A stretch of DNA of 41,363 bases from Solobacterium sp. (lineage in GTDB: Bacteria > Bacillota_I > Bacilli_A > Erysipelotrichales > Erysipelotrichaceae): the NCBI GenBank assembly GCA_017421125.1, contig JAFOMZ010000142.1, positions 1 to 41,363 of the forward strand. The letters run 5' to 3'. Positions 25,811-33,504 of this stretch are shown here, piece after piece (within the stretch, counting starts at the first letter, position 1; every line of letters starts with the position of its first letter). The translations under genes were made by a program, and so were the position numbers. The notes below the pieces were generated by a model, which worked only from the letters and a program-made list of their open reading frames with translations, had not been told where the DNA came from and did no database searches.

Positions 25811-26965
25811 ATGTGTAAATATAAGGACGACGCTTCCTCTTGGGGAAGCTCTTTGAAGTATCTCCCGTGGGATCATACACAGGGGGATTCTCTGTCTCGG
25901 AAACTGATCAGCGCAACCGTACACGAATGGTATGATGCCAAACACAGATCTTCGTCAATCGAAGAAGTGGCTTTGATCAATTCTGTTGAAGTGATTTCCT
26001 GTCGGCTGTGTGGCTCAGTGAAAGTCATTTCTTACGGCAAATACAGAAATGGAATTAAGCGTTATTTCTGTAAGGATTGTTGCCATTCTTTCTCTGCTTT
26101 GACAGGAACGATCTTTGAAGATCGGAAAATACCGGTCTCCGAATGGATTGAGTATCTGATCCATCTGTTTGAATTTCATTCAATTACCACCAGCGCCAGG
26201 GATAATCGGAATGCATATTCTACAGGCAGATATTGGCTTTTTAAGGTTTTTGCAGTTCTGGAAGACTTACAGAAGGACATAGTCCTTGAAGGCAATGTAT
26301 TTCTGGATGAGACATTCTTCACTGTTGTTGAATCAAAGAAGAGACTGAAAGAGAACGGTAAGGAATACAGGGGCATATCCAGAAACAAGTTGTGTGTGGC
26401 TGCAGCTTATGATGAAGCAGGTCATATTCTTCTAATATGTGAGAGCACATCCAAACCTTCATTCAAAAGCACCTGGAGCGCATTGGGAACTCATATCAAG
26501 CCCGAATCCCATTTGATACATGACGGAGAAAAGTCGCATCGCATCCTGATTGAGAGACTGAATCTGACACATGAAGAATATGACTCCGATCTGTTGAAGA
26601 AGCTGCCGGATGATGAGAATCCGTTGGATCCGATCAATGAGATCCACTCACTTGCTAAACGTTTCATGCGATCACATGGTGGATATAACAGAGACAATCT
26701 TCAGCACTGGATGAATCTGATTTCATTCATACTGACAGAGCCAAAAGATCGATACGAGAAGATCGATTTATTCATCAATATGGCACTAAATTCGCCACGC
26801 GTGGTGAAATATCGCAATGTAATGTCAAAAAACTCAGCAAATAAACGGTTTATCACCAACGCAGTGCAAATTAGGACTTTTTTTTTTCAATTTTTATGTG
26901 ACGTGACCCACCAAAAATCCGTGTTTCAGTATGAAGGCAGAATTAAGCCTGGAGGTGAAATATGA
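25811..26965 (+). CDS. IS1595-like transposase
   Basis: A 384-residue frame. A zinc ribbon (Cys64, Cys67, Cys87, Cys90; CRLCGS...FCKDCCHSF) precedes a DDE-type catalytic domain with FLDETFF (Asp166), IHDGEKSH (Asp238) and a third-residue region near QHWMNLISF, which looks DDN-like. The right inverted repeat is translated (through Thr356) without a stop; the last 28 residues and the TGA come from flanking host DNA. The stop overlaps the next gene's ATG (ATGA). No Shine-Dalgarno precedes the ATG, which sits behind the leader pseudoknot. Confidence 0.85.
   Translation: MCKYKDDASSWGSSLKYLPWDHTQGDSLSRKLISATVHEWYDAKHRSSSIEEVALINSVEVISCRLCGSVKVISYGKYRNGIKRYFCKDCCHSFSALTGTIFEDRKIPVSEWIEYLIHLFEFHSITTSARDNRNAYSTGRYWLFKVFAVLEDLQKDIVLEGNVFLDETFFTVVESKKRLKENGKEYRGISRNKLCVAAAYDEAGHILLICESTSKPSFKSTWSALGTHIKPESHLIHDGEKSHRILIERLNLTHEEYDSDLLKKLPDDENPLDPINEIHSLAKRFMRSHGGYNRDNLQHWMNLISFILTEPKDRYEKIDLFINMALNSPRVVKYRNVMSKNSANKRFITNAVQIRTFFFQFLCDVTHQKSVFQYEGRIKPGGEI
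26855..26879 (-). repeat. Right terminal inverted repeat of the IS
   Basis: 25 bp, perfect partner of 25657-25681. Confidence 0.9.
26880..26887. repeat. Right target-site duplication of the IS (T8)
   Basis: Eight T immediately after the right repeat, then CAATTTTTATG of the former intergenic region. Confidence 0.65.
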
Positions 26966-27249
26966 ACATTATTCTCAATCACGACAGCCGTACAGCTGAA
27001 ACACCGCAGGGAACAGTTCATCTGACTCCCAGGGAATTCGACATCCTTGATTACCTGATCGGCCATTCCGAAACATGTGTTTCCCCGGAAGAACTGTACC
27101 AGTATGTCTGGCAGGCAGTTCCGTTTGAATGCCGTCCGGTGATCGCCGTGCACATCAGGCACATCAGAGAAAAGATCGAACACGATCCCTCACGTCCCGA
27201 ATTTGTCAAAAGACGCTGGGGAAGGGGATATCAGTTCAACAACGCATGA
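26962..27249 (+). CDS. Stand-alone OmpR/PhoB-type winged-helix DNA-binding protein
   Basis: This 95-residue protein consists only of the C-terminal DNA-binding module of OmpR/PhoB regulators: VHLTPREFDILDYLI, recognition-helix region VIAVHIRHIREKIE and wing RRWGRGYQFNN. It has no receiver domain, so it cannot be controlled by phosphorylation of its own chain. GGAGG stands 6 nt before the ATG. Only about 75 bp of native upstream DNA separates it from the right end of the IS, and no convincing promoter is seen there. Targets are unknown. Confidence 0.82.
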   Translation: MNIILNHDSRTAETPQGTVHLTPREFDILDYLIGHSETCVSPEELYQYVWQAVPFECRPVIAVHIRHIREKIEHDPSRPEFVKRRWGRGYQFNNA

Positions 27250-28753: not shown

Positions 28754-28827
28754 GTCCTGGTAGCTCAGTTGGATAGAGCACTCGCCTTCTAAGCGAGTGG
28801 TCGCGGGTTCGAATCCCTCCCAGGACG
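28754..28827 (+). tRNA. tRNA-Arg (anticodon TCT)
   Basis: A 74-nt cloverleaf. The acceptor stem GTCCTGG pairs with CCAGGAC, followed by discriminator G. The D arm is GCTC...GAGC, the anticodon stem CTCGC/GCGAG with loop CTTCTAA gives anticodon TCT, and the T arm is GCGGG-TTCGAAT-CCC-like. No CCA is encoded. It reads AGA codons, which are common in this window. Confidence 0.96.
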
Positions 28828-29620: not shown

Positions 29621-29647
29621 TTAGCAGTCAACTGTTGACAGTGCTAA
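29621..29647 (+). promoter_or_regulatory. CIRCE element 1 (HrcA operator)
   Basis: TTAGCAGTC-N9-CAGTGCTAA matches the CIRCE consensus TTAGCACTC-N9-GAGTGCTAA at 16 of 18 arm positions with exact 9-bp spacing. It overlaps the -35 of the trigger factor promoter. Confidence 0.8.
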
Positions 29648-29663
29648 AACCATTGTGTATGAT
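29635..29663 (+). promoter_or_regulatory. Trigger factor promoter P1
   Basis: TTGACA (29635-29640), exactly 17 bp, TATGAT (29658-29663), placed between two CIRCE elements. Confidence 0.75.
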
Positions 29664-29664
29664 T

Positions 29665-29691
29665 TTAGCAGGTTTCAGGTGCGAGTGCTAA
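29665..29691 (+). promoter_or_regulatory. CIRCE element 2 (HrcA operator)
   Basis: TTAGCAGGT-N9-GAGTGCTAA matches the consensus at 15 of 18 arm positions; the right arm is perfect. It covers the expected start of transcription from P1. Confidence 0.78.
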
Positions 29692-29739: not shown

Positions 29740-29748
29740 TGTTATACT
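29740..29748 (+). promoter_or_regulatory. Trigger factor promoter P2 (extended -10)
   Basis: TGTTATACT, 36 nt before the ATG and downstream of both CIRCE elements; it could give HrcA-independent expression. Confidence 0.4.
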
Positions 29749-29784: not shown

Positions 29785-31107
29785 ATGTCAACTTGGACAC
29801 TGAAAGAGAATTCAACCGGCGAGCTCGTCGCTAAAGTAGAGGGAGAGGTCTGGACAAAGGCTTGTGATAAGGCATTCAACAAGATCGCAAAGACGATCGA
29901 ACTGCCCGGATTCAGAAAAGGAAAAGCACCCAGAAAGATGCTTGAAAAAAGGATCCCCAGACAGCAGGTATATTACGAAGCAGTCGATGCAGTCGCAAAT
30001 GATGTACTGCAGGCAGAAGTCAAAGCAAACAATCTGGAACTGGTCGCAAGACCCGAACTGGATCTCGGAACATTGAATGATGAATGTGCAGAACTGATCT
30101 TCAAGCTCACAGTCAAGCCTGAAGTCAAGCTCGGCGAATACAAAGGCCTTGATTACAACATGGGCGATACAACAGTTACGGATGAGGACTTCGATAAGGA
30201 GATCAACCGTATGCGTGAACAGTATTCCGATATCGTTACAAAAGAAGGTCCCGCAGCAATGGGTGACACAGTCAACATTGATTATAAGGGATTCAAAGGC
30301 GAGGAAGCATTCGAAGGCGGCTCCGCTGAAGGATACAAGCTTGTGCTGGGCAGCGGAAGCTTCATCCCAGGTTTCGAAGAGCAGCTGGTAGGTGTTAAGG
30401 CAGGCGAAGAAAAAGATCTGAACCTGACATTCCCCGAAGACTACCATGCTGAAGATCTTGCAGGCGCAGAAGTCGTATTCAAGGTCAAGGTCAATGAAGT
30501 AACAGAAAAGGTTCTTCCTGAACTGGATGACGATTTTGCTCAGGATGTCAACGCTCCGGGCGTGGAAACAGTTGATGATCTGAAAGCACTTGTCAGAAAA
30601 CGTCTCGAAGACAGCAAAAAACAGATCGCTACAAGAGATGCAGATGAAGATCTGTTCAGACGTGTCAGCGACAACGCTGAAGTCAATATCCCTGAAGTCA
30701 TGATCGAGGATGAGATCCAGAATCATGTACAGCAGCTCCAGTCACAGCTGCAGCAGTATAACATGTCTCTGACAGGCTATCTGCAGATGATGGGACAGAC
30801 AGCTGAACAGCTGAAGGAAAGCTTCCGTGAGGAATCCGAGAAGTCCGTCAAGATGCGCCTTGTCCTTGAAGCGATCGGAAAAGCTGAAAACCTCGAACTG
30901 ACAGATGAAGAAGTCGACAAAGAATATCAGAATCTGTCTGAAATGTATCAGATGCCGGTCGAACGTGTCAAAGAACTCGTTGACCGTGACATGCTGGTGA
31001 CAGATATCAGATCTCAGAAGGCATATGACTTCGTTAAGAAGAACGCAAAGGGTGTGCCTGCTGAAGAACCTGAAACACCTGCCGAAGCACCTGCTGAAGC
31101 AGAATAA
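29785..31107 (+). CDS. tig: Trigger factor
   Basis: The 440-residue ribosome-bound chaperone has the usual three parts: an N-terminal ribosome-docking domain with signature GFRKGKAPRKMLEKR (near residue 43), an FKBP-type prolyl isomerase domain (GDTVNIDYKGFKGE...GSGSFIPGFEEQLVG, about 165-225) and the helical C-terminal chaperone arms. The tail is a Pro/Glu/Ala-rich extension (EEPETPAEAPAEAE). AAAGGAG precedes the ATG. Two CIRCE operators suggest heat-shock control by HrcA. The clpX gene often found between tig and lon is absent. Confidence 0.97.
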   Translation: MSTWTLKENSTGELVAKVEGEVWTKACDKAFNKIAKTIELPGFRKGKAPRKMLEKRIPRQQVYYEAVDAVANDVLQAEVKANNLELVARPELDLGTLNDECAELIFKLTVKPEVKLGEYKGLDYNMGDTTVTDEDFDKEINRMREQYSDIVTKEGPAAMGDTVNIDYKGFKGEEAFEGGSAEGYKLVLGSGSFIPGFEEQLVGVKAGEEKDLNLTFPEDYHAEDLAGAEVVFKVKVNEVTEKVLPELDDDFAQDVNAPGVETVDDLKALVRKRLEDSKKQIATRDADEDLFRRVSDNAEVNIPEVMIEDEIQNHVQQLQSQLQQYNMSLTGYLQMMGQTAEQLKESFREESEKSVKMRLVLEAIGKAENLELTDEEVDKEYQNLSEMYQMPVERVKELVDRDMLVTDIRSQKAYDFVKKNAKGVPAEEPETPAEAPAEAE

Positions 31108-31120
31108 AACCGAATTTAAT

Positions 31121-31147
31121 AAAATAAGACGCCCGGCGTCTTATTTT
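31121..31147 (+). terminator. Hairpin between tig and lon
   Basis: AAAATAAGACGC-CCG-GCGTCTTATTTT, a 12-bp stem whose right arm ends in TTATTTT. The T-rich part is inside the stem, so termination may be partial. Confidence 0.55.
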
Positions 31148-31188
31148 ATCCAAAAGGGTTATTGTTTATCGATAACAGGAGGTACTCA

Positions 31189-33504
31189 ATGAGTAATGAA
31201 TCTATTGTAAGAGTTCCTGTCGTTGCGACGAGAGGGATCATCCTGTTCCCCGGTCTTGATTCCATGATCGAGGTCGGACGTACGAAATCGATCAATGCTG
31301 TGAATACTTCTTCACAGTCCTTTGATTCCATGGTATGGGTCGTATGCCAGAATGACATCATGGTTGATGATCCCAAGGAAGAAAATCTCTACCGCATGGG
31401 AACACTCAGCAAGATCAAGATCGTCCGCCGCAAGGAAGGATTCATGCGTGTTACATTCACCGGAATGAAGCGTGCAAGACTTGTCAAGCTGGACAACAAC
31501 AGTGACATGATGGTGGCTGATGTTGAAGTATTGAATGATGTCCAGGGCAGTCAGATGGAAGAAATGGCGCTCGTCAAACGGATCATTTCCGAGTTTGAAC
31601 GCTTCAGCAACCTGAGCAGTTCATTCCCTGCAGAGGTCATTTCACAGCTGACACGCGGCGTATCCGCGATCACGCTGACAGATCAGATCTCCCAGTATTT
31701 CCCGATGGATACATCCGTCAGGCAGAAGCTTCTGGAAACACTTGATGTCAACGAAAGAATGCTGATGATCATTGCCGAACTGGAAAAGCAGCAGCGCTTC
31801 AGCCAGATCGAAGCGACGATCAACGACAGGGTCAAGGAACACATCGATGACGGCCAGAAGGAATACTACCTGAGGGAAAAGCTCAAGGCGATCAAAGAAG
31901 AACTCGGTGATACGACCAGCATGTCCGATGACACCGAACAGATGCGGGAAATGATCGAAAAGAACCCGTATCCGGATCATGTCAAGGAAAAGGCAAGAGA
32001 AGAACTGAGACGCTATGAAATGCTGCCTCCGGGATCCGGCGAAGCATCCGTTTCCCGTACATATCTTGACTGGCTCCTGAAGGTTCCCTGGTGGCAGAGC
32101 ACGGAAGACAATCAGGATCTGAAGGAAGTCAAGAAGATCCTTGATGAAGATCACTACGGCCTGAAAAAGGTCAAGGAACGCATCATGGAGTATCTTGCCG
32201 TCAAACAGATGACAGGAAACCTGAACAGCCCGATCCTTTGTCTTGTAGGTCCTCCGGGCGTCGGCAAAACATCACTTGCCAAGAGCATTGCCAGAAGTCT
32301 TGACAGAAAGTTTGTCAAGATGAGCCTGGGCGGTGTCCGTGACGAAGCAGAGATCAGAGGCCACAGAAGAACATATCTCGGTTCACTTCCGGGACGTGTC
32401 ATCCAGGGCATGAAAAAGGCAGGCGTCATCAATCCGCTGTTCCTGATCGATGAGATCGATAAAATGGGAGCTGACTATAAAGGCGACCCGAGTGATGCGC
32501 TTCTGGAAGTACTTGATCCCGAGCAGAATTCATTCTTCTCCGATCATTATCTGGAAGAACCGTATGATCTTTCAAAGGTCATGTTCATCGCAACAGCCAA
32601 CTATCTCGACAACATTCCCGCACCTCTGCAGGATCGTCTTGAGATCATCGAGCTTCCTTCCTATACAGAGATCGACAAAGTCCATATTGCCCAGGATCAC
32701 CTGATCCCGAAACAGCTGAAGGCAAATGGCCTGCACGCATCACAGTTCAAGCTCAGAGAAAAGGAGATCCTCTATCTGATCCGTCACTACACCAGAGAAG
32801 CAGGTGTAAGACAGCTGGAACGTACGATCGCATCACTGTGCAGAAAGACTGTTCTTGCCATCCTGAACGATGACAAGAAGAGTGTCACAGTTAACCAGAA
32901 GCTGATCAATCAGTGGCTTGGAAAAGAGATCTTTGAATACGGTGTCAAAGAAAAGAACGACCAGGTAGGCGTTGTTACAGGTCTTGCATATACATCATTC
33001 GGCGGTGACGTTCTTTCCATCGAAGTCAATTACTTTGAAGGCAAAGGAAATATGGTACTGACGGGAAAACTCGGAGATGTCATGAAAGAATCCGCAGCGA
33101 TCGCGCTTGACTATGTAAAGGCACATGCCAAAGAACTCGGTATCGATCCGAAATTCTTCGATTCACATGACATCCATATCCACATTCCGGAAGGGGCTGT
33201 TCCCAAGGACGGACCTTCAGCCGGTGTTACACTGACGACAGCACTTGTTTCCGCTCTGAGGGATACACCCGTCCATGCGGATCTCGCGATGACCGGTGAA
33301 GTCACACTGAGAGGCAATGTACTGCCGATCGGCGGCCTGAGAGAAAAATCTCTGGCTGCCCACAGAGCAGGCATCAAGAAGATCCTGATTCCGAAGATGA
33401 ATGTCAGGGATCTGGATGACGTGCCTGAAGCAGTCCGTGAAAGCATCAAATTCGTACCTGTTGAGACGATGTCCCAGGTTCTGAAAGAAGCATTGGTGCG
33501 CTGA
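31189..33504 (+). CDS. lon: ATP-dependent protease Lon
   Basis: A 771-residue LonA-type AAA+ protease degrading damaged and regulatory proteins in the cytosol. It has the N-terminal LON substrate domain (VPVVATRGIILFPG), Walker A GPPGVGKT near residue 354, Walker B FLIDEIDK, and a protease domain with catalytic Ser in KDGPSAGV (near 677) and Lys in EKSLAAHRAG (near 720). The ATG at 31189 is chosen because AGGAGG stands 6 nt before it; an upstream in-frame TTG is disfavoured. The stop overlaps the engB start by 1 nt. Confidence 0.97.
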   Translation: MSNESIVRVPVVATRGIILFPGLDSMIEVGRTKSINAVNTSSQSFDSMVWVVCQNDIMVDDPKEENLYRMGTLSKIKIVRRKEGFMRVTFTGMKRARLVKLDNNSDMMVADVEVLNDVQGSQMEEMALVKRIISEFERFSNLSSSFPAEVISQLTRGVSAITLTDQISQYFPMDTSVRQKLLETLDVNERMLMIIAELEKQQRFSQIEATINDRVKEHIDDGQKEYYLREKLKAIKEELGDTTSMSDDTEQMREMIEKNPYPDHVKEKAREELRRYEMLPPGSGEASVSRTYLDWLLKVPWWQSTEDNQDLKEVKKILDEDHYGLKKVKERIMEYLAVKQMTGNLNSPILCLVGPPGVGKTSLAKSIARSLDRKFVKMSLGGVRDEAEIRGHRRTYLGSLPGRVIQGMKKAGVINPLFLIDEIDKMGADYKGDPSDALLEVLDPEQNSFFSDHYLEEPYDLSKVMFIATANYLDNIPAPLQDRLEIIELPSYTEIDKVHIAQDHLIPKQLKANGLHASQFKLREKEILYLIRHYTREAGVRQLERTIASLCRKTVLAILNDDKKSVTVNQKLINQWLGKEIFEYGVKEKNDQVGVVTGLAYTSFGGDVLSIEVNYFEGKGNMVLTGKLGDVMKESAAIALDYVKAHAKELGIDPKFFDSHDIHIHIPEGAVPKDGPSAGVTLTTALVSALRDTPVHADLAMTGEVTLRGNVLPIGGLREKSLAAHRAGIKKILIPKMNVRDLDDVPEAVRESIKFVPVETMSQVLKEALVR

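Follow-up and report, generated by a model that had tools for sequence, protein, structure and literature searches.

Trigger factor is usually viewed as a housekeeping chaperone for nascent chains. In Bacillus subtilis, which has CtsR, regulation is divided between HrcA, acting on the chaperones, and CtsR, acting on the clp genes. The class I system of HrcA and its operator CIRCE is described for B. subtilis and Lactobacillus plantarum, where the targets are groESL and hrcA-grpE-dnaK-dnaJ; in B. subtilis, HrcA represses the hrcA-dnaK and groE operons (PMC8957991). Two CIRCEs have been reported before hrcA of L. plantarum (PMC3842655), and double CIRCEs before dnaK and clpB of Spiroplasma (PMC5138195). 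In the Mollicutes, CIRCE also lies in the tig-lon region and the control of lon is predicted or used: it is found before lon in Mycoplasma gallisepticum (PMC4245973) and Spiroplasma melliferum (PMC5138195), and directly before lon, behind tig, in Mycoplasma pneumoniae (PMC7737663).

The locus described here lies in a window of 41,363 nucleotides, the whole stretch of DNA that was analysed, from a gut-type member of the family Erysipelotrichaceae. It shares the operator consensus and the repressor family with the class I system, and the kind of system is therefore known. It differs from that system in its predicted target, since tig is absent from the HrcA targets in the cited literature; in its operators, which enclose the promoter, with the -35 box within CIRCE 1; and in the presence of CIRCE before htpG and ftsH in the same genome. 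Unlike in M. pneumoniae, CIRCE stands ahead of tig, and, unlike in B. subtilis, the HrcA sites of this family cover clpB, hsp20, htpG, ftsH, tig and lon. No report of CIRCE ahead of tig was found in the open-access literature. CIRCE on lon is already known in the Mollicutes, and only the tig part looks new; what is added is tig as a target, together with the conserved layout in which the promoter is enclosed.

The tig control region

The region contains the following features:

28754-28827: tRNA gene (Rfam RF00005, 67 bits), preceding the tig region
29621-29647, plus strand: CIRCE 1, predicted HrcA operator, TTAGCAGTC-AACTGTTGA-CAGTGCTAA, 16/18 arm positions
29635-29663, plus strand: promoter P1, TTGACA (29635-29640), 17 bp, TATGAT (29658-29663)
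29665-29691, plus strand: CIRCE 2, predicted HrcA operator, TTAGCAGGT-TTCAGGTGC-GAGTGCTAA, 15/18, right arm perfect
29740-29748, plus strand: P2, predicted basal promoter, extended -10 TGTTATACT, clear of both operators
29785-31107, plus strand: tig, trigger factor, 440 aa (Pfam Trigger_N, FKBP_C and Trigger_C; TIGR00115 equivalog, 410 bits)
31119-31149, plus strand: terminator-like hairpin in the tig-lon gap, ATAAAATAAGACGC-CCG-GCGTCTTATTTTAT, stem -15 kcal/mol
31189-33504, plus strand: lon, ATP-dependent protease La, 771 aa from ATG (TIGR00763 equivalog, 932 bits)

The operators were compared with the CIRCE consensus TTAGCACTC-N9-GAGTGCTAA, counting mismatches over the 18 arm positions. CIRCE 1 has two mismatches and CIRCE 2 has three; they lie 44 bp apart, centre to centre, and are the only sites with ≤3 mismatches across the 41-kb window. 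In 100 dinucleotide shuffles of the window the mean was 0.02 CIRCE sites, and no shuffle presented two. P1 is the top-scoring promoter-like site of the region (11/12) and lies 122 nt upstream of the tig ATG. Its -35 box is inside CIRCE 1, and CIRCE 2 starts 2 bp past its -10, so that the predicted P1 start point would be covered by CIRCE 2. These results bear out the earlier note, which had described a CIRCE pair with these scores and one perfect arm, the overlap of CIRCE 1 with the -35 box, and a TTGACA-17-TATGAT promoter. The TTGAC of the P1 -35 and GAGTGCTA of CIRCE 2 are both unchanged in the 9/9 genus-level loci aligned.

The second promoter, P2, lies 45 nt ahead of the tig ATG, and a good -35 is absent. 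Downstream of the last CIRCE, 39-45 nt from the tig ATG, 11/11 members of the genus have a TGnTATA[AC]T motif (shuffle rate 0.010), and this conservation supports the basal promoter that had been suggested at 29740. Many sister genera without CIRCE present an extended -10 of the P2 type at a similar distance from tig. Read most simply, the genus would have retained its old basal promoter and acquired, ahead of it, one that can be repressed.

The lon gene is directly behind tig in 115/115 family loci and 18/18 sister-family loci (133/133), and is followed in the window by the GTPase gene ysxC/engB. The hairpin between tig and lon has the core GACGC-CCG-GCGTC, with a T-rich 3' arm, and the whole gap folds at z -3.85. 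Across the order, 91/132 tig-lon gaps contain a similar terminator-like element (0.45 in shuffles), conserved as GACGC..GCGTC with a T tail. The median gap is 49 nt, and the element also occurs in 33 gaps of ≤45 nt, down to ~40 nt, where there is scant room for a lon promoter. Because a conserved hairpin separates the two genes, transcription of lon probably depends on read-through alone and would stay below the level of tig; the hairpin may set the tig:lon ratio. The earlier claim of tig control with lon downstream has to be qualified by the conserved terminator-like hairpin that intervenes. In two relatives (G054 and G128; loci L039 and L075), a double-CIRCE cassette is found after the hairpin, between tig and lon, instead of before tig, a position like that of the Mollicutes.

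HrcA in the genome and the proposed control

The genome assembly has 2.83 Mb in 299 contigs and is 84.6% complete. It contains hrcA (PF01628, E 1e-46; TIGR00331, 311 bits, above the cut-off), which excludes the absence of the repressor gene, named at the outset as an argument against HrcA control, and the encoded protein aligns with the solved HrcA of Thermotoga maritima (1stz). Nine CIRCE sites were found in the assembly, against none for the reversed control pattern, and all nine precede chaperone or protease genes: ftsH (1), groES-groEL (2), hrcA-grpE (2), htpG (2) and tig-lon (2). The hrcA gene has its own double CIRCE with the 44-bp spacing observed at tig, and the layout of the tig control region is that of the hrcA promoter in the same genome. 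The following sequence features of a class I operator are found at tig: a consensus repeat, an hrcA gene in the genome, the canonical targets groESL and hrcA-grpE with CIRCE, overlap with the promoter and its predicted start, and conservation before orthologous tig genes.

In relatives, CIRCE is also found before clpB, hsp20 and a second lon-like gene. The latter, which encodes a divergent substrate-binding domain, was observed with CIRCE upstream in G125 and G075 (L234 1-1977, minus strand; L240). A search for CtsR (PF05848, PF17727) found none in 145 family genomes; the search control matched Lactococcus lactis and missed B. subtilis, so that the likely absence of CtsR from the family is provisional. 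Two nearly complete family genomes (G016 and G055) yielded no candidate for CIRCE, hrcA or tig, which may be a data problem.

Based on this arrangement, we propose with high confidence a two-promoter control region, in which P1 would be under two HrcA operators, P2 would be the basal promoter, and lon would be fed by read-through of the hairpin. At normal temperature, HrcA would occupy CIRCE 1 and CIRCE 2 and P1 would be off, the repressor presumably being held active by GroEL/ES, as in B. subtilis. When GroEL is occupied by misfolded proteins, HrcA would be released and P1 would fire. Basal trigger factor would come from P2, which is clear of both operators; most transcripts would end at the hairpin after tig, and those reading through would feed lon. 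The CIRCE arrangement is conserved in relatives, and tig and lon are therefore most likely members of the heat-shock response. Counting against this model are the three mismatches of CIRCE 2, though its altered left arm recurs in relatives; functional CIRCEs of the Mollicutes have been reported with ≤2 mismatches (PMC5138195). In its favour are the CIRCE elements already known at lon in the Mollicutes and the ~100-fold rise on heat of the HrcA promoters of Acholeplasma (PMC5138195).

Conservation in relatives and alternative readings

The spread of the arrangement was counted as a CIRCE with ≤3 mismatches, ≤250 nt ahead of tig, in 115 family genomes (53 genera), sampled from a larger group, and in 18 sister-family genomes. 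Such an operator was found in 37/115 family genomes (14/53 genera), in 11/11 tested members of the genus of the window and in 12/18 sister-family genomes, while the permuted-motif control gave 0.013 of 115 family genomes. Counting against the model, most family genomes do without such an operator: 76/115 have no CIRCE ahead of tig and none in the tig-lon gap. No CIRCE directly before tig was found in the sampled loci of Bacillales, Paenibacillus, Staphylococcus, Listeria and Clostridia. On a FastTree trigger factor tree of 133 rows, with some weak deep branches, the trait changes state 4 times, a count blind to gain versus loss, against at least 32 changes (mean 39.7) in 200 label shuffles. 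In two other genera, CIRCE was observed ~820-850 nt upstream of tig (L027 653-679, L031 651-677, L080 124-150), where it probably belongs to another gene.

The double element itself, which the earlier note expected to recur ahead of tig in other Erysipelotrichia, does so. The closest named trigger factors, from Solobacterium sp. MAGs (55 and 53% identity), have a double CIRCE in the 44-bp register, and an Erysipelotrichaceae MAG (49% identity) has one at 43 bp; Longibaculum muris has a single CIRCE at tig. Within the genus, both operators are kept at tig in 5/11 members, and some members retain one recognisable operator only, either CIRCE 2, with TTGAC retained (G031, G075, G125), or CIRCE 1 (G102, G186, G190). 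The pair is therefore not obligatory in the genus.

These single-operator members, together with the additional mismatch of CIRCE 2 relative to CIRCE 1, agree with a different reading, in which one element is the working operator and the other is a decaying copy, partly preserved by the promoter sequence that it carries. We consider this rather unlikely, since nearly half of the genus members maintain both operators and since pairs spaced by 43-49 bp around a promoter recur in the family before hrcA, groES, htpG, clpB and lon. In a non-random sample, 31/32 distinct CIRCE pairs have a spacing of 43-49 bp, and most pairs flank a -10. The cassette with the enclosed promoter, TTGACAGTGCTAA-N8-12-TA-N4-10-TTAGCA, is present in 91/145 family genomes, against one match for the reversed control, and its copies are often just upstream of hrcA.

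In addition, the TTGAC of the -35 is at exactly +14 of the first CIRCE in 33/37 family tig loci, a position that makes the right arm begin with C and not G. As judged from this fixed register, the commonest CIRCE mismatch, in the right arm of the first operator, is a constraint imposed by the promoter and not decay. In the second CIRCE, it is the left arm that was observed to be repeatedly changed in the family, to TTAGCAGGC, GAC or GGT, with a near-perfect right arm; the altered arm is common to tig, hrcA, htpG and lon loci, and may represent a weaker site or the avoidance of a transcript hairpin.

Three layouts of operator and promoter were distinguished ahead of tig. The genus of the window combines P2 with the enclosed P1, whose operators lie ~60-180 nt from the ATG. 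Two other clades of the family present a single operator, which ends 42-50 nt before the ATG and contains the -35 of a TTGACA-16-TATAAT promoter; this promoter looks like the sole tig promoter there. In the sister family, the distance from the end of the operator to the ATG is 65-72 nt, and in several genomes the operator is directly upstream of a TTGCAA-TATAAT promoter.

The second of these layouts bears on the reading that HrcA binds, but P2 drives nearly all tig transcription, so that the effect of heat on tig and lon would be tiny and the operators would fine-tune a minor promoter. P2 is indeed present throughout the genus and resembles the sole visible promoter of many CIRCE-free sister genera. 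However, the -35 of P1 is perfect and its spacing is 17 bp, and the operator on the sole visible tig promoter of the two other clades argues that they tolerate strong control of tig; we regard a minor role for P1 as unlikely.

A transcribed CIRCE is able to fold, and the predicted P1 start is inside CIRCE 2, which could then act as an RNA hairpin altering mRNA stability and not as a DNA operator. This is very improbable, because the predicted fold of the leader from 29665 is no stronger than that of shuffled sequences (z -0.83), the arms of CIRCE 2 are unpaired with each other in it, and the alteration that recurs in the left arm (TTAGCAGGC and the like) would weaken such a hairpin. The Rfam scan returned the tRNA only; no RNA thermometer or riboswitch was found near tig. 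Finally, the view that the CIRCEs match by chance, or are relics that have fallen out of use in this genome, is rejected despite the draft state and incompleteness of the assembly, given the shuffle expectation, an intact hrcA and conservation in all 11 genus members at 52-57% protein identity.

Wider reading and neighbouring features

If HrcA controls tig directly, nascent-chain folding and Lon proteolysis would be tied to GroEL load in these gut-associated Erysipelotrichales, with P1 predicted to be heat-inducible and P2 constant. The layout in which two CIRCEs enclose a promoter, the first of them containing its -35, is suggested as a template for the recognition of HrcA targets in the order.

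More tentatively, and with slightly less than even confidence, we suggest that in Erysipelotrichales HrcA replaced CtsR as the main regulator of proteostasis and captured tig-lon several times independently, with a different layout each time. These would be the enclosed P1 above the old basal promoter in this genus, the operator on a single promoter in two clades, the sister-family operator placed immediately ahead of the promoter, and the mycoplasma-like tig-lon cassette in two genomes.

Elsewhere in the window, at 25811-27249, a zinc-ribbon-type transposase-like ORF runs straight into an ORF of 95 aa. The latter resembles the DNA-binding half alone of a response regulator, and is possibly a gene cut by insertion.
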